DNA from: Granulicella paludicola
GTDB taxonomy: Bacteria; Acidobacteriota; Terriglobia; Terriglobales; Acidobacteriaceae
DNA: 64,000 nt
NCBI RefSeq assembly: GCF_025685545.1
Contig: NZ_JAGSYC010000023.1
Location: forward strand, 248,001-312,000
Reading direction: 5' to 3'
In this document: piece after piece, positions 50,939 to 56,369 of the stretch
How positions within the stretch are numbered: position 1 is the first letter of the stretch
Layout of the letters: the number at the start of each line of letters is the position of its first letter
The notes under the pieces: generated by a model
Database searches by the model: none
Told to the model about the DNA's origin: nothing
What the model saw: the letters and a program-made list of their open reading frames with translations, nothing else
Position numbers and translations under genes: made by a program

Positions 50939-51129
50939 TGCCTCCGCATCTCTTCGCACTCCACACTACCCCCTCTCACGCCTCGTTGAAAACCGGGTTC
51001 CCCATCTTCGCGACGGCTTCATAGTCGCTAGGGTGGGCATCGCGCATCGCGCGACCGCGGCGGTTCCTCATAGATTTTCCCGTAAATCTTCGATCACCTA
51101 TGCGATAGTTACCGGGAGAACCCATCCCT

Positions 51130-54100
51130 ATGCCCCCCTGCGCTCAGGCCCGCGCCACGTCTCCGTACGCATTCCTCCGCGCAATCCTCTGCGCCTCTGT
51201 TGCCCTCACCACCCACGCGCAAACACCCAAAGTCACTCCTGCGCAACTCGCCGCCGCTGAGCAGAGCTTCACCTACGGCGACCCCACCGCGCTGCCCACC
51301 CTGCTGCAAGCCGCCGACCAGGGCAATGCCGCCGCCAAATATGATCTCGGCCTCGCCTTCCTGAGCGGCCTCTATCCTCAACCGCCCGATCGCGTCCTCG
51401 CGCTCCAGTGGTTCGAAGCCGCCTCACACGCTGGCGAGCCCCGCGCCGCCTCCTACATCGGAGACTTCTACCTCGACCCTCGCAACGGCAAGCCCGACGC
51501 CCCCAACGCCCTCTTCTGGTACGAGAAAGCCGAGCGCGCCCACGACCTCCGCGGCACCCTCGTCCTCGCCGATCTCTATCGCACCGGCGGCCCCATCCCA
51601 CGCAACCTCCCGCGCAGCGCAAACCTTCTCACCCTCGCCGCCAGCTACCCGCAGCCCTCCAGCGACACCCCCGCCGGGCGCCAGCTACTCCTCCACATGA
51701 TGAGCAGCGAAACCACCCTCGGCTCCCTCTACGAGCACGGCGACGGCGTCCCCCGCAGCCTCACCCTCGCCAATCGCTGGTACGCCAGGGCAGCCACCCT
51801 CGGCTCCTCCGCAGCCGTCCTCGCGCAGACCCACCTCTATCTCCTTAAAGGCGGCACCCGGAACCTCGCCCTCGCCACCAAAACCCTCGACAAGTTCGTC
51901 GACGACCAGAACCACAACCGCATTCTCGACTCCACAGACCAGATCGGCCCCACCTACATCGCCATCGGCCAGCAATACGAAACCCGCGGCCCCACCGGCA
52001 TCGACGCCGCACAGGCGCTCTTTCTCAAGGCCGCCCACTTGGCCGACACCGAAGGCGTCTTCGAACTCGCACAACGCTTCATCACCGGCCACGGCACCCC
52101 CGTCGATCTCGACCGCGCCTACACCCTCATCCATCCCTATCTCTCCGACACCTCCCCACAAGCTCGCTCGACCATCGCCGCACTCCACAACGCTTACCTC
52201 AAAGCCTCGCCACCCAATCCTCTCCGCGCACGGCAGCTGGTGCCCCACTTTCTTCCCCCGCCGCCCCGGGAAGCGGCCGAAGGAACCACCGCCGTCGTCG
52301 TCACTCCCGCCACACCCGCTCCCACCATCCTCGAGCGCTACCCCAACCTCCAGGCACCCGACTCCGTCCCCGCCCTCCAGGACTTCGCCGTCCAGGTCTC
52401 ACTCAACGCCTTCCAGTTCGACACCTCCACCCAGATCCTCAACGGCGATCAGGACAGCGGCAAGCTCAAAATCGCCCTCCCCGCCGGTCTTACCTCCCTG
52501 CCCATCGACGTCGCCCTCATCGCCCCCGGCATGACCTTCACCGACGGCTCCAACACCTCCACCCTCACCCTCGACGCTTCCAACCCCAACTCCACACCCG
52601 CCGTCTTCCATGTCCGAGCCCCCGCCGCTCCCATCGCCACCCAGCTCATCGCGACCCTCACCTACCACCAGACCTTCCTCGCACAACTCGCTCGCAGCAT
52701 CACCATCACCGCCGTCTCCACAGACATCGCCAGTCCCGCCCCGCAGCCTCCTATCGTCAGCCTCACACCACCCGTTCCTCCCAACGACACCTCCGCGCTC
52801 ACCCGCTCCGACACCTCCCCCATCGGCCCGCACATCCAGTCGAGAACCACAACGCAGCCCGCAGCCCCCAAACCGCCCATCGTCACCCTGCTGCCCCCGC
52901 GTCCCATCGCCCCACCCACGCCTCAACCCATCGTTCCCAACCCCACCGACAAGCAATCCGATCTCACCATCATCGAAACCCTCGTCGGCGACAGCATGAT
53001 GTACCAGATCATCGGCCCCGGCATCGACCCCGCCTCCCCCGTCGCTGTCCCCAACGCCGCAGCCACCGCCGCCAAGGTGCAAGCCGACTACGCCCAGCTA
53101 CAGTCGCAAGCTCTCCTTCTCGCCGCAGGCACCGGAGCCGCCTGCGCCGCCGACCGTGCCTCCCACGTCGCCAGGCCAGCCGACAACGGCTCCGACACCG
53201 ACGCCAGCTGCTCCGACAGTGTCTTCGCCCGCGGCCTCATCGAAGGCATCGGCACCGACCTCTACACCCACGACGCGCCCGAATCCTTCCGCACCATCTA
53301 CCAGCAGATGCTCGCCGCCCACACCCGCCTGCACAGCATCACCATCGTCACCAACAACCCGCTGCTCCCCTGGGAGCTGATGTGCGTCCCCTCACCCACT
53401 GGTAAGGGTTGTAATCTGCTTGGCCTCACCACCGCCATCGTCCGCGAAAACTCCGCAGCCCCGCAACTCGCGCAACCCGCAGACATCTCCATCTCCGCCA
53501 TCGACGTAGTCGCCCCCAACTACACCGGCACCCTCTCGCTCGCCGGAGCAGCCACCGAACTCAAAGCCATCAAGGCTGCGTTCCCCGCCATGCATCAGGT
53601 CGATGGCGACGCGAACTCCGTAGCCCTCATGGTCAAATCCGCCCCCCAGGGCATCATCCACTTCACCGGCCACGGCAAGCGCGTCGACGCCTCCACACCA
53701 GCCCCCATCCCCACAGCCGCAGCTAGCACGACTCCTGCGGCAACTCCAGCGTCCATGCCACCGGCTCCTGCCGTCGCATCGCCAGTCCCTCCGCCCACGC
53801 TTCTCGCCCCCAGCGTAGCCATCGCGCTCGAAGACTACGACATGACCCCCGACACCTTCATCGCCTTCCGTTCCGAAGGCAACGACTCCGCGCACCCCTT
53901 CTACTTCTTCAACGCCTGCGACCTCGGCCAGTCCGACAAGGAACTTACCTACGTCGCCGGCTGGGCACCCGACCTCATGCGCTCCGGCGCAGCAGGTTAT
54001 CTCGGAGCCCTCTACGAAGTAGGCGACACCAGCGCCTCCAGCTTCGCCGCCCACTTCTACGACGGCCTCAAAGCCAACCTCGCCAGCAACACCCCCTGGA

Positions 54101-54222
54101 CCATGGCCGATCTCGTCACCCAGGCCCGCCAGCAGACCTACGCCGAATCCAACGACCCCACCGCCCTCGCCTACGTCCTCTACGCCAAACCCTTCATGAA
54201 GCTCGTCCCCGCCGCTAAATAA
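51130..54222 (+). CDS. secreted Sel1-repeat/CHAT caspase-like protease
   Basis: The 1030-residue protein has a probable signal peptide (FLRAILCASVALTTHAQ), Sel1-like repeats in about 40-385 (NAAAKYDLGLAFLSG, LALQWFEAASHAGEPRAAS), a Pro/Thr/Ser-rich linker (about 385-640, including TPQPIVPNPTDK) and a CHAT domain near the C-terminus. The catalytic His848 (IIHFTGHGKR) and Cys930 (FFNACDLGQ) are both present, as in caspase-like peptidases. A run of Ala, Pro and Thr of about 45 residues sits between the His loop and the next strand (855-900), unusual within this fold. The gene is followed by repeats and then a CHASE2 gene. Substrate and activation signal are unknown. Confidence 0.9.
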   Translation: MPPCAQARATSPYAFLRAILCASVALTTHAQTPKVTPAQLAAAEQSFTYGDPTALPTLLQAADQGNAAAKYDLGLAFLSGLYPQPPDRVLALQWFEAASHAGEPRAASYIGDFYLDPRNGKPDAPNALFWYEKAERAHDLRGTLVLADLYRTGGPIPRNLPRSANLLTLAASYPQPSSDTPAGRQLLLHMMSSETTLGSLYEHGDGVPRSLTLANRWYARAATLGSSAAVLAQTHLYLLKGGTRNLALATKTLDKFVDDQNHNRILDSTDQIGPTYIAIGQQYETRGPTGIDAAQALFLKAAHLADTEGVFELAQRFITGHGTPVDLDRAYTLIHPYLSDTSPQARSTIAALHNAYLKASPPNPLRARQLVPHFLPPPPREAAEGTTAVVVTPATPAPTILERYPNLQAPDSVPALQDFAVQVSLNAFQFDTSTQILNGDQDSGKLKIALPAGLTSLPIDVALIAPGMTFTDGSNTSTLTLDASNPNSTPAVFHVRAPAAPIATQLIATLTYHQTFLAQLARSITITAVSTDIASPAPQPPIVSLTPPVPPNDTSALTRSDTSPIGPHIQSRTTTQPAAPKPPIVTLLPPRPIAPPTPQPIVPNPTDKQSDLTIIETLVGDSMMYQIIGPGIDPASPVAVPNAAATAAKVQADYAQLQSQALLLAAGTGAACAADRASHVARPADNGSDTDASCSDSVFARGLIEGIGTDLYTHDAPESFRTIYQQMLAAHTRLHSITIVTNNPLLPWELMCVPSPTGKGCNLLGLTTAIVRENSAAPQLAQPADISISAIDVVAPNYTGTLSLAGAATELKAIKAAFPAMHQVDGDANSVALMVKSAPQGIIHFTGHGKRVDASTPAPIPTAAASTTPAATPASMPPAPAVASPVPPPTLLAPSVAIALEDYDMTPDTFIAFRSEGNDSAHPFYFFNACDLGQSDKELTYVAGWAPDLMRSGAAGYLGALYEVGDTSASSFAAHFYDGLKANLASNTPWTMADLVTQARQQTYAESNDPTALAYVLYAKPFMKLVPAAK

Positions 54223-54682
54223 CCTCGACGGCGATCTTTCTTTCTTGTTCGTCATTCCCTCAGGGAATCTGCTTTTGCCTTTGCTTTTTTTCCTTGTCAT
54301 TCCCTCAGGGAATCTGCCTTCGCCTTTGCTTTTTTCTTTGTCATTCCCGCAGGGAATCTGCTTTTGCCTTTGCTTTTTTCGTTTGTCATTCCCGCAGGGA
54401 ATCTGCTTCTTCCCGCTGCCGTGTGCCCCCATTTCTACGCAGCCTCCTCGCGGATGAGCGGGCCACCACAACTCCGCACCCCCGTTTTTTGCTCTCGCTC
54501 TTGGATAGGTCTGGGCTTCAGCCGCCGGGATATACTTTCTGTCCTCAAGCGGCAACCCAAAAGCAACGCCCCTATCGATCCGTCAGGCATCTCTCTGAAT
54601 CTGCCGCTTCCTCCTAAAACACGCCCCCACGACTCACCAACATGCTCTACTCTCTATACAAACCACTCACCTCCCGAGGCCC
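54223..54682. other. intergenic region with tandem palindromes
   Basis: This gap of 460 bases between the CHAT and CHASE2 genes carries the four-unit repeat at 54251-54406. The rest (54431-54682) is unremarkable; a GAGG site 4-5 bases before the CHASE2 ATG is the only signal seen. No gene is apparent, although a frame on the opposite strand crosses the repeats. Confidence 0.6.
54251..54406. repeat. four tandem palindromic units (44-45 base period)
   Basis: Copies begin at 54251, 54296, 54340 and 54385. Each is 22 bases, GTCATTCCC(T/G)CAGGGAATC-TGC, with ATTCCC and GGGAAT pairing around a 3-base loop (TCA in the first two, GCA in the last two). The units are separated by T-rich spacers of 22-23 bases (TTTTGCCTTTGCTTTTTT). 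This resembles REP-like elements and not a CRISPR array. Confidence 0.85.
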
Positions 54683-56002
54683 ATGTCCTTCCCGCAGCGA
54701 GCCGCCGCCCTCTTCCGCAAAGCCACGCATCCCATCGTGCGCAAAGGCTGGATGCACTGGGCGCGCTTCGCCGTCCTCCTGCTCATCGGCTCCTACATCG
54801 GCCACATCCTCTCCGAAAGCGACCGCTTCGCCGACTGGCGTCTCTGGCTGTATCAAAAGCAGATGCGTTGGCAGCGCCGCGGCGCCGTCTATCCCAAGTA
54901 CACCGCTCTCGTACTTCTGAGCGACGAGGACTACTGGAGTGAGCAATACCAGGCTCGTTCCAAACTCAAGCGCGACAAGCTCGCCGCTCTCCTGGACCGC
55001 CTCAACGCCGCAGGCGTCAACACCGTGGCCTTCGACGTCTTTATGGACTCCCCACACCAGGAGTCTCCGGACTATGACTTCCCTGACTATCGCGCAGAAG
55101 ACCAGGTCTTCTTCCAGTCCCTGGGTCGCATGTGCGCCGCGGGACGTCATGTCGTTCTCGCTACCGAGTTCTTTTGGGAAGGTGACGATCGAGTCGAGGC
55201 ACACTCCATCTACGACAGTCATCTTCCGTCCCTGCCTTGCGTCACCAACGGACACGTCGATCTTCCCGACGACATGCGTAAGGTGCCGGGACAGGTAGAC
55301 ATCAAGGGTGGCCGTACTCTTGACTCGCTCTCGCTCGCCATCACGCGCGTCACCGATCCCATCGCGTACAACAACCTCATCCAGAACGAGGACAAAGGCT
55401 ACCGCTTCGCCCAGTTCCTCACTATGGAAGACTTCAGCACGCGCGACGGCCGCCAGTTTGTCTTCAGCGATGCCGATCTACAGCGCATGTCGCCCCTTCA
55501 ACTCCATCAGGCGTTGGCCGACCGTATTGTCATCGTTGGCGGTCACTTTCACATAGCCGCTTTGAATGAAGGCCCCTGGGTGGACGTGGAAGACTCCCCC
55601 GGTGGCAAGGAGCCCGGCGCCATGTTGCACGCTGGCTACGTCGAAGCCATGCGTGACCCCGTCAGTACGTTTACCCCCATCTCCGACCACACGGCCGAGG
55701 TGCTTGAGTGGATGCTCGCACTCGCTCTGGCTCTGCTCGGATCTCTCGAAATCCATGTCGGCTGGAAGTGGGGAGGCTTCGTCGCCAGCTTTCTCGCCAG
55801 CGTCGTCATGACCTATGCGCTCATGCAGAATCTCGGCATCTTCCTGGACTTTTTCATTCCCATCCTGATGATCTTGCTCCATACTGTGACGGAAGCCATC
55901 CTTGACATGCGACATGAAGTGCGTCACCTGAAGCACCAGTTACACCTGCACCATAAGAACGTCCGGGAGGACCACCATGAAACTACGAGCTCTGCTTCAT
56001 AG
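54683..56002 (+). CDS. CHASE2-domain membrane protein without output domain
   Basis: The 439-residue protein begins with a membrane helix (about 28-45, FAVLLLIGSYIGHIL), then a CHASE2 domain of about 285 residues (KYTALVLLSDEDYWSE, NTVAFDVFMDSP, LADRIVIVGGHFH), then three helices near 340-405 (WMLALALALLGSLEI). The C-terminal 30 residues are His-rich and coiled (ILDMRHEVRHLKHQLHLHHK). CHASE2 usually sits in front of a kinase or cyclase; here there is no output domain, so a separate partner is required. The following gene starts 26 bases before its stop. CHASE2 and CHAT partners occur together in other bacteria. Confidence 0.9.
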   Translation: MSFPQRAAALFRKATHPIVRKGWMHWARFAVLLLIGSYIGHILSESDRFADWRLWLYQKQMRWQRRGAVYPKYTALVLLSDEDYWSEQYQARSKLKRDKLAALLDRLNAAGVNTVAFDVFMDSPHQESPDYDFPDYRAEDQVFFQSLGRMCAAGRHVVLATEFFWEGDDRVEAHSIYDSHLPSLPCVTNGHVDLPDDMRKVPGQVDIKGGRTLDSLSLAITRVTDPIAYNNLIQNEDKGYRFAQFLTMEDFSTRDGRQFVFSDADLQRMSPLQLHQALADRIVIVGGHFHIAALNEGPWVDVEDSPGGKEPGAMLHAGYVEAMRDPVSTFTPISDHTAEVLEWMLALALALLGSLEIHVGWKWGGFVASFLASVVMTYALMQNLGIFLDFFIPILMILLHTVTEAILDMRHEVRHLKHQLHLHHKNVREDHHETTSSAS

Positions 56003-56369
56003 GTCGGCGGCTGTACTGGCGCTTACCCTTCTCACCCTGAACCTCTGCGGCAGCGCCCTCGCGGCTCCCCCTCAGAAGGGCACCAACACCGGCGGCGTAG
56101 GCCGTGGCGATAACGGACAACTTCTCCGCGTCACCGTCACCCTCAACGGCAAGCTCCAGCCCGGCGTCCGCGTCAAGGTGGCCGTCAGCGATGGCTCCGT
56201 CGTCGTCTCCGGCCTCACCGCCAAGAATGGCACCTACATCGCCCCGCTCGACGCCGGCGACTACACCGTCTCCGCAACCACCCCGAAGGGCACCGCAACC
56301 AGCCCGGTCACCATCGTCAAATCCACTGACCCGGCCCTGATCTCCCTGGCCCTGGCTCCCACCCACTAA
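55977..56369 (+). CDS. small secreted Ig-fold-like protein
   Basis: The 130-residue product has a signal peptide (LALTLLTLNLCGSALAAP). The mature part includes LRVTVTLNGKLQPGVRVKV, GLTAKNGTYIAPLDAGDYTV and ATTPKGTATSPVTIV, a pattern of beta strands like the carboxypeptidase-regulatory or transthyretin-like Ig fold. GGGAGG lies 6 bases before the ATG, inside the CHASE2 gene, so translation is coupled. It may be a ligand, a chaperone or a substrate of the CHAT protein; this is inference only. A terminator hairpin follows. Confidence 0.85.
   Translation: MKLRALLHRSAAVLALTLLTLNLCGSALAAPPQKGTNTGGVGRGDNGQLLRVTVTLNGKLQPGVRVKVAVSDGSVVVSGLTAKNGTYIAPLDAGDYTVSATTPKGTATSPVTIVKSTDPALISLALAPTH

Follow-up and report, generated by a model that had tools for sequence, protein, structure and literature searches.

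A three-gene cassette in Granulicella paludicola combines genes for a predicted exported Sel1-CHAT peptidase, a CHASE2 membrane protein without output domain and a small, predicted secreted partner

The window analyzed here is a 64,000-nt stretch of DNA from Granulicella paludicola (Acidobacteriota; contig NZ_JAGSYC010000023.1, positions 248,001 to 312,000 of the forward strand). Reading of the open reading frames (ORFs) revealed that the region 51130-56369 of the window consisted of three plus-strand genes, encoding a CHAT protein, a CHASE2 protein and a small protein. This CHAT/CHASE2/small-protein cassette, noticed from the sequence in an initial annotation, was confirmed, and comparisons with relatives supported the linkage of the three genes. 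In the best model, to which we assign a probability of roughly 0.45, the cassette would be a minimal envelope proteolysis module, in which CHASE2 tethers and gates a periplasmic CHAT protease. The features of the cassette, with the evidence for each, were as follows.

51130..54222, + strand: Sel1-CHAT peptidase gene, predicted exported, 1030 aa (ORF; Pfam Sel1/CHAT/C25; orthologues)
51130..51219, + strand: predicted signal peptide, residues 1-30, cut THA/QT placed by eye (13-residue hydrophobicity peak 2.10)
51280..52224, + strand: Sel1-repeat solenoid, residues ~51-365 (Pfam Sel1; PDB Sel1 matches; helical repeats in the model)
53323..54156, + strand: CHAT peptidase domain, residues 732-1009 (Pfam CHAT; alignment with 14 other CHAT domains)
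53671..53673, + strand: predicted catalytic His848 codon (invariant in 15/15 aligned CHAT domains)
53917..53919, + strand: predicted catalytic Cys930 codon (invariant in 15/15; profile matches to Craspase TPR-CHAT and separase fall here)
54683..56002, + strand: CHASE2 membrane protein gene, output-less, 439 aa (ORF; Pfam; hydrophobic segments)
54818..55732, + strand: CHASE2 domain, residues 46-350 (Pfam; Cys151/Cys186 in 4/4 orthologues)
55977..56369, + strand: gene of a small secreted CnaB/transthyretin-like beta-sandwich protein, 130 aa (ORF; Pfam; hydrophobicity scan; model)

The conservation of the cassette was analyzed in a family sample of 200 genomes from 79 genera. The window CHASE2 protein had three full-length orthologues (64-67%), all from one other genus, and a weak partial match in genome G029; six further genomes in this sample came from the same genus as the window, and none of them had a CHASE2 orthologue. 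Among the matches listed for the CHAT protein, two were near full length (51% in G122 and 46% in G081) and one was partial (33% in G074), with the others falling in the Sel1 part. The same CHAT-CHASE2-small order was seen in G122 and G081, where CHAT and CHASE2 were 106 and 94 nt apart and CHASE2 and the small gene overlapped by 4 nt. With the window included, the full order was present in three of the four genomes with a full-length CHASE2 orthologue, and the overlapping CHASE2-small pair was present in all four. In pairwise comparisons of 18 kb of the window, the G122 stretch and the G081 stretch, solely the three cassette genes matched. Because the flanks shared nothing at the cut-offs used, the cassette order was kept in three unrelated settings. 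The three genes therefore appear to behave as a unit, as the initial annotation had proposed in calling them a system.

Pfam analysis of the CHAT protein identified Sel1 (2.6e-20), CHAT (1.5e-9; 38.2 bits against a cut-off of 24) and Peptidase_C25 (6.9e-7). The ORF, the Pfam matches and the residue positions agreed with the earlier description of a 1030-residue Sel1-CHAT protein with a signal peptide, His848 and Cys930. His848 was located inside the motif HFTGHG and Cys930 inside FFNAC. Besides their invariance in the 15-row alignment, which was made of hand-chosen domains from Acidobacteriota, Cyanobacteriota and Alphaproteobacteria, both residues were kept in the two full-length orthologues and in the partial relative of G074. 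The protein carried a CHAT domain above the cut-off together with the His/Cys dyad of the CHAT peptidases (clan CD, PF12770). The 15-row profile matched PDB entry 8rot, a "CHAT domain-containing protein" (5.8e-11), and more weakly Craspase-type CHAT (0.0044-0.0075) and separase (0.024-0.033), and a profile from the four closest CHAT-region sequences matched zero PDB chains. In the structural model, the Sel1 part was of moderate quality, with ten-residue means of the predicted local distance difference test (pLDDT) mostly at ~50-78 and dropping past residue 320. By sequence, the CHAT protein has an intact His/Cys caspase-type site.

At the N-terminus of the window CHAT protein, a basic residue was followed by a hydrophobic stretch and the predicted cut. 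A 19-residue scan (cut-off 1.5) flagged the N-termini of both orthologues and not that of the window protein. Among the non-catalytic cysteines, C672/C694 were present in 3/3 of the CHAT orthologues, C752/C761 were found in the window copy only, and C185/C197 together with C224 (G122 numbering) were found in the two relatives only. Cysteines that are kept or lost together fit disulphides formed in an oxidizing compartment. The export claimed in the initial annotation, and with it an envelope location, is supported as a prediction because of the N-terminal hydrophobic segments and these jointly kept or lost cysteines. To place this prediction in the phylum, 20 CHAT genes were hand-picked among the Pfam matches listed, without a listed CHASE2 gene within 20 kb, and 13/20 of their proteins had signal-like N-termini by hydrophobicity. 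Exported CHAT proteins are, on this count, apparently ordinary in Acidobacteriota, and the idea that an exported CHAT protein is exceptional was rejected. The novelty seen earlier in an exported CHAT protein with a membrane sensor was narrowed accordingly: export alone is common, and the apparently unusual feature is how closely CHAT is joined in one unit to a CHASE2 protein that lacks an output. Probable signal peptides on bacterial metacaspases have already been published (PMC3501461; here and below, sources are cited for the parts of them that were available).

The CHASE2 protein matched the Pfam CHASE2 family (PF05226) at 6.8e-16, with 59 bits against a cut-off of 26.3. No kinase, cyclase or other output domain was found above the Pfam cut-offs in this protein, in line with the initial annotation. 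Three C-terminal hydrophobic segments (residues 340-358, 363-381 and 384-402) were followed by a short basic tail, and an N-terminal hydrophobic segment was present below the scan cut-off. The CHASE2 domain lay between these membrane segments as in the known receptors, whereas the cytoplasmic output of such receptors was missing; 20 residues remained past the match to the CHASE2-TM profile. By this predicted topology, the large CHASE2 sensory domain is extracytoplasmic, and no cytoplasmic enzyme is attached to it. Several residues of the basic tail were invariant in 4/4 orthologues.

The small protein gene was coupled to the CHASE2 gene, whose end overlapped its start by 26 nt in the window, and the protein had a signal-type N-terminus, so that the earlier description of a coupled small secreted protein stands. 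The N-terminal hydrophobic segment was detected in 3/4 of the small proteins by the 19-residue scan, and all four passed a simpler signal-peptide rule. The small protein belonged to no Pfam family at the curated cut-off; beta-sandwich families matched below it only, the best being CarboxypepD_reg (2.5e-6; 28.2 bits against 32.3), and Pfam gave no DUF928 (PF06051) match even with E values up to 1 allowed. A model built from a two-sequence alignment had a mean pLDDT of 67.7, with residues 51-110 at 82-88. Its best structure match was the CnaB2 domain 8bdw (4.8e-5), with carboxypeptidase transthyretin-like domains lower down. The protein had been called a small Ig-fold protein; the beta-sandwich was retained, and with modest confidence the model is a strand-only sandwich closest to CnaB2/transthyretin-like domains rather than a classical Ig fold.

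A possible relation between the missing output and the peptidase was analyzed in a phylum sample of 396 genomes, 122 of which contained CHASE2. Most of the listed CHASE2 genes had long frames. The output-less set comprised seven loci (the window, G064, G268, G354, G465, G482 and G531, the last as G531:C5 from a separate CHASE2 listing), and CHAT or C14 peptidase genes were located within 9 kb of CHASE2 in 5/7 (the window, G268, G354, G465 and G482). The 60 output-bearing controls, with either a kinase at the N-terminus or a long part at the C-terminus, had CHAT nearby in 2/60 and C14 in 0/60. The contrast of 5/7 with 2/60 gave a Fisher value of 4.3e-5; this and the other Fisher values are descriptive because related genomes are not independent. 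Without the window and G531, which sits at a contig edge, the contrast was 4/5 with 2/60 (1.1e-4). In a broader count, at least 6/73 output-bearing CHASE2 genes were near a peptidase, and the contrast with 5/7 held (3.5e-4). The 73 rows, counted by hand, were the 60 controls, ten rows read later, and the CHASE2-cyclase genes near CHAT in G055:C67, G075:C1 and G109:C12; the ten later rows had no CHAT or C14 (CHASE2 was re-found in 8/10), and G523, with C14 ~9 kb from an output-bearing CHASE2, was included in the at least six. The controls were hand-picked among the CHASE2 matches listed, mostly with room on both sides, although several stretches ended at contig ends and the CHASE2 gene was not re-found by the CHASE2 profile in 4/60. 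Short-frame CHASE2 genes at contig edges or with a partial domain (G377, G426, G300, G509, G407, G548:C58 and G539:C316) and the cut or half-length G291:C231 and G535:C39 were left out of the 5/7 count. Loci L159-L161, tried as output-less, were moved to the output-bearing class on account of N-terminal kinases by Pfam. The enrichment fits a peptidase that replaces the cytoplasmic output.

A secreted-type gene adjoined CHASE2 in 7/7 output-less loci when judged by eye. The partners were a small protein, a fasciclin protein (G531), or proteins without a Pfam name that were FecR-like by eye only; in G268 the secreted-type gene was ~240 nt from CHASE2. An automatic test for secreted neighbors was positive in 8/10 output-less loci (the seven with G122, G081 and G002). 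The loci of G268 and G465 escaped this test, and in G354 it picked a different upstream frame. G354, G465 and G268 contained similar sets with other peptidases and partners, and EAD5 was found in the related locus G482.

Three of the neighborhoods had features of their own. Seven Pfam C14 matches were found in ~42 kb around the output-less CHASE2 of G268 (G268:C51:72236-114501, partly L079), where at least two neighboring proteins also had WD40 repeats. In L075:334-2791, an output-less CHASE2 gene overlapped the gene of a secreted-type fasciclin-domain protein. In L082:6575-9467, an EAD5-CHASE2 protein adjoined an EAD5-trypsin protein, a pairing suggestive of an adaptor that connects CHASE2 sensor and protease.

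Looser versions, with an exported CHAT or C14 peptidase predicted beside CHASE2 and a secreted partner, recur in other Acidobacteriota, Cyanobacteriota and Alphaproteobacteria, in agreement with the CHASE2/CHAT association elsewhere that the initial annotation had mentioned. In G055 and G075, an exported-type TPR-CHAT gene faced a DUF928 gene, above the family cut-off in both, and a CHASE2-cyclase gene; in G109, CHAT was ~2.5 kb from a CHASE2-cyclase whose cyclase was confirmed by Pfam. On plasmids, 17 CHAT loci were opened, hand-picked from 118 + 5 matching records of separate searches. CHASE2 was found in 6/17 (with a profile seeded with three of those six) and not in the other 11 (L086, L087, L089, L091, L092, L095-L099 and L102). 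Sphingobium showed the window order of exported-type CHAT, CHASE2-cyclase and an overlapping small secreted gene, followed by ShlB, while the order in Niveispirillum was CHAT, small secreted gene, CHASE2-cyclase. CHASE2 was beside CHAT in both L100 and L101; the latter, a plasmid locus of Rhizobium sp. BG4 (L101:4028-10143), had CHASE2 seemingly split over two frames and then a gene of secreted type, which the exported-type CHAT gene overlapped by 4 nt. In Leptolyngbya, Aulosira and Tolypothrix, the CHAT genes were of exported type, joined in the first two by C14 genes that were also of exported type. Weak DUF928 matches, below the cut-off, came from secreted-type genes in Leptolyngbya and Tolypothrix. 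The CHASE2 proteins of these three cyanobacteria carried a CHAT domain N-terminal to CHASE2, without kinase or cyclase (L090:3119-5365, L093:860-3394 and L094:3004-5448). The window CHASE2 query matched nothing on plasmids; the G268 CHASE2 query gave one match, in Caballeronia, where an output-less CHASE2 had a secreted neighbor and a Pfam-confirmed CHAT gene 4.3 kb off. This locus was found through the CHASE2 search and stands outside the 5/7 count.

The notion that CHAT relatives are always beside CHASE2 was rejected, because the stretches around several CHAT genes had no CHASE2 match by profile (G074, G434, G419, two in G426, G467, G249 and G250). Some of these CHASE2-free stretches contained DUF7379 or TCAD7.

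The mechanism proposed in the initial annotation, in which sensing by CHASE2 activates the periplasmic protease and the small protein is its ligand or substrate, is supported in part: the data back the linkage and the envelope location, and the activation step and the role of the small protein are hypothetical. In the preferred model of a tethered and gated protease, the Sel1 solenoid, a protein-binding type of fold, would anchor the protease in the periplasm, with the CHASE2 ectodomain, the small beta-sandwich protein or both as docking site, and the docked protease would stand in for the cytoplasmic output that CHASE2 lacks. CHASE2 would read an envelope signal, the small protein may be a co-sensor, adaptor or inhibitor, and the signal would switch CHAT cleavage of an envelope target on or off. 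Several points weigh against this model. Genome G002 had CHASE2 and the small gene without CHAT, and no CHAT relative better than E 0.01 was found in this 84% complete genome by profile search; CHAT was probably lost there, since G081 and G002 share flanks. G064 had an output-less CHASE2 with a small secreted partner and no peptidase nearby. In five loci with CHASE2 near CHAT (G055, G075, G109, Sphingobium and Niveispirillum), the CHASE2 protein retained a cyclase, which means that CHAT is not necessarily the output. Secreted neighbors are common among CHASE2 genes in general, with one in 26/56 controls. The CHAT frame of G482 was cut at the stretch edge, which makes its export uncertain. The peptidase profiles used for the controls were partly seeded with test loci, and profiles from plasmids only missed the window CHAT, so some controls may have divergent peptidases nearby that escaped detection. 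Finally, we infer peptidase activity from the His/Cys site, because AlphaFold gave no usable CHAT model: on a two-sequence alignment the mean pLDDT was 37.9, and the CHAT part was nearly all below 50.

Both the loci with CHASE2-cyclases and the G002 locus without CHAT point to a connection between CHASE2 and CHAT that is looser or runs the other way. This leads to the main rival, in which the exported CHAT protein would act upstream, with the CHASE2 ectodomain or the small protein as the target of its cleavage, and CHASE2 would signal inward, through the cyclase in relatives and, in the window, through an unlinked partner reached by the short cytoplasmic tail. The five cyclase-bearing loci and the invariant tail residues favor such a route, whereas the lack of an output domain in the window CHASE2 protein, and the finding that, within the Acidobacteriota sample, CHASE2 genes next to peptidases were most often output-less in proportion to their number, oppose it; we consider it doubtful, if still a serious contender. 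An envelope conflict or cell-death device, in which CHASE2 would sense damage or a competitor and the protease would kill or remodel the cell, seems unlikely. Related sets do hold EAD5-CHASE2 with EAD5-trypsin or an array of C14 peptidases, caspase and trypsin genes were found beside CHAT on a plasmid without CHASE2, EACC2-caspase-CHASE2 fusions have been reported (PMC8195603), and the cassette is patchy and occurs in unrelated settings; against this, the three window proteins had no PADLOC match and no NTPase or nuclease among them. Slightly less likely still are two independent units, a CHASE2-secreted pair and, with a function of its own, an exported CHAT protease. Pairs of this kind were frequent in the controls and the pair stands by itself in G002, CHAT genes of exported type are common across the phylum, and CHAT and CHASE2 are 460 nt apart in the window, but the trio occurs in three unrelated settings, the gaps of the relatives are far shorter, and the CHASE2/CHAT association recurs in three phyla. 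Beyond the window, a widespread and so far undescribed envelope signaling class can be proposed tentatively, with rather less than an even chance of being correct, in which an exported caspase-fold peptidase (CHAT/C14) would partner a CHASE2 receptor and be its output in the output-less forms, and the ligand or adaptor would be a small secreted protein of beta-sandwich, DUF928 or other type; the window would be the smallest stand-alone form.

Some features of the locus lie outside this argument. The 460-nt gap between CHAT and CHASE2 contained the following repeat.

54251..54406, + strand: palindromic repeat GTCATTCCCKCAGGGAATCTGC, four tandem copies between CHAT and CHASE2 (genome pattern count)

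The repeat was a 22-mer, with copies ~45 nt apart and 32 exact copies across the genome; the reversed pattern, used as a control, had zero genome copies. It looks like an intergenic element of the repetitive extragenic palindromic (REP) type. Because of the gap with these repeats, a single transcript for all three window genes is less certain than in the orthologues. The G+C content of the CHAT gene region (51000-54000) was ~66-67%, against ~58-60% around it. Pfam searches of the same genome found one CHASE2 gene and one further CHAT gene at another place. The second CHAT protein (L043:3376-5808, 810 aa) was barely above the Pfam cut-off, and the CHASE2 profile found no CHASE2 within the 12-kb stretch around its gene.

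To our knowledge, most discussion of bacterial caspase-like enzymes treats them as effectors of cell death or CRISPR in the cytoplasm. If the wider signaling class exists, caspase-type decision proteolysis would take place outside the bacterial cytoplasm. A conserved trio with a caspase-like enzyme in the envelope under a membrane sensor would add to the compartments in which these enzymes act and to the ways in which they are controlled. CHASE2 would also gain a concrete candidate partner to test, and the recurrence in three phyla makes the idea testable in culturable cyanobacteria or alphaproteobacteria. The looser trios in other bacteria suggest an overlooked use of caspase-type enzymes outside the cell membrane.

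The cassette was compared with known systems. PADLOC gave no match for the three window proteins, and the cassette was rejected as a known defense system on this ground; Pfam found none of the NTPase core or effector-associated domains of NTP-dependent (ternary) conflict systems in them. In the open-licence full-text literature, "CHASE2" and "CHAT domain" were not found together in one paper, "CHAT domain" was found with neither "filamentous hemagglutinin" nor "Acidobacteri", and "DUF928" was not paired with "CHAT". The TPR-CHAT protein of Craspase (Csx29, type III-E CRISPR) resembles the window protein in that helical repeats are followed by a CHAT peptidase domain at the C-terminus. Craspase TPR-CHAT is cytoplasmic. 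As far as the available descriptions go, Craspase is CRISPR-guided with Cas7-11 as partner, whereas the window protein has an export signal, Sel1 repeats in place of the TPR region and a linked CHASE2 gene; the conserved genes linked to it were those of CHASE2 and the small protein.

The CHASE2-cyclase and CHASE2-kinase receptors share with the window an extracytoplasmic CHASE2 domain and a linked secreted gene, as in the Burkholderia operon of LysM-FecR and CHASE2-histidine kinase (PMC5192318), and the factors recognized by CHASE2 were described as unknown in 2016 (PMC5192318). The window differs from these receptors in having no cytoplasmic output domain and a linked gene for a predicted exported CHAT protease. 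In the WD40-CHASE2-DUF928 cluster of Nostoc punctiforme, CHASE2 is likewise linked to a gene of the secreted-partner type, DUF928; the available part of its description names no CHAT gene and treats a cluster of one species with inferred signaling (PMC5587647). Effector-associated domains have been treated elsewhere (PMC7159879), and a CHAT-TIR target was predicted to be cytoplasmic (PMC10907252). CHASE2 has been listed among the domains of bacterial metacaspases (PMC3501461), and one published scheme places caspase domains on the cytosolic side under CHASE2 (PMC7475262). Fusions of CHASE2 with caspases have also been described, including a Trichodesmium metacaspase that carries CHASE2 (PMC2853523) and the EACC2-caspase-CHASE2 proteins (PMC8195603), in which CHASE2 is tied to a caspase-fold peptidase as in the window; in the window, however, the peptidase is a separate protein and is predicted to be exported.

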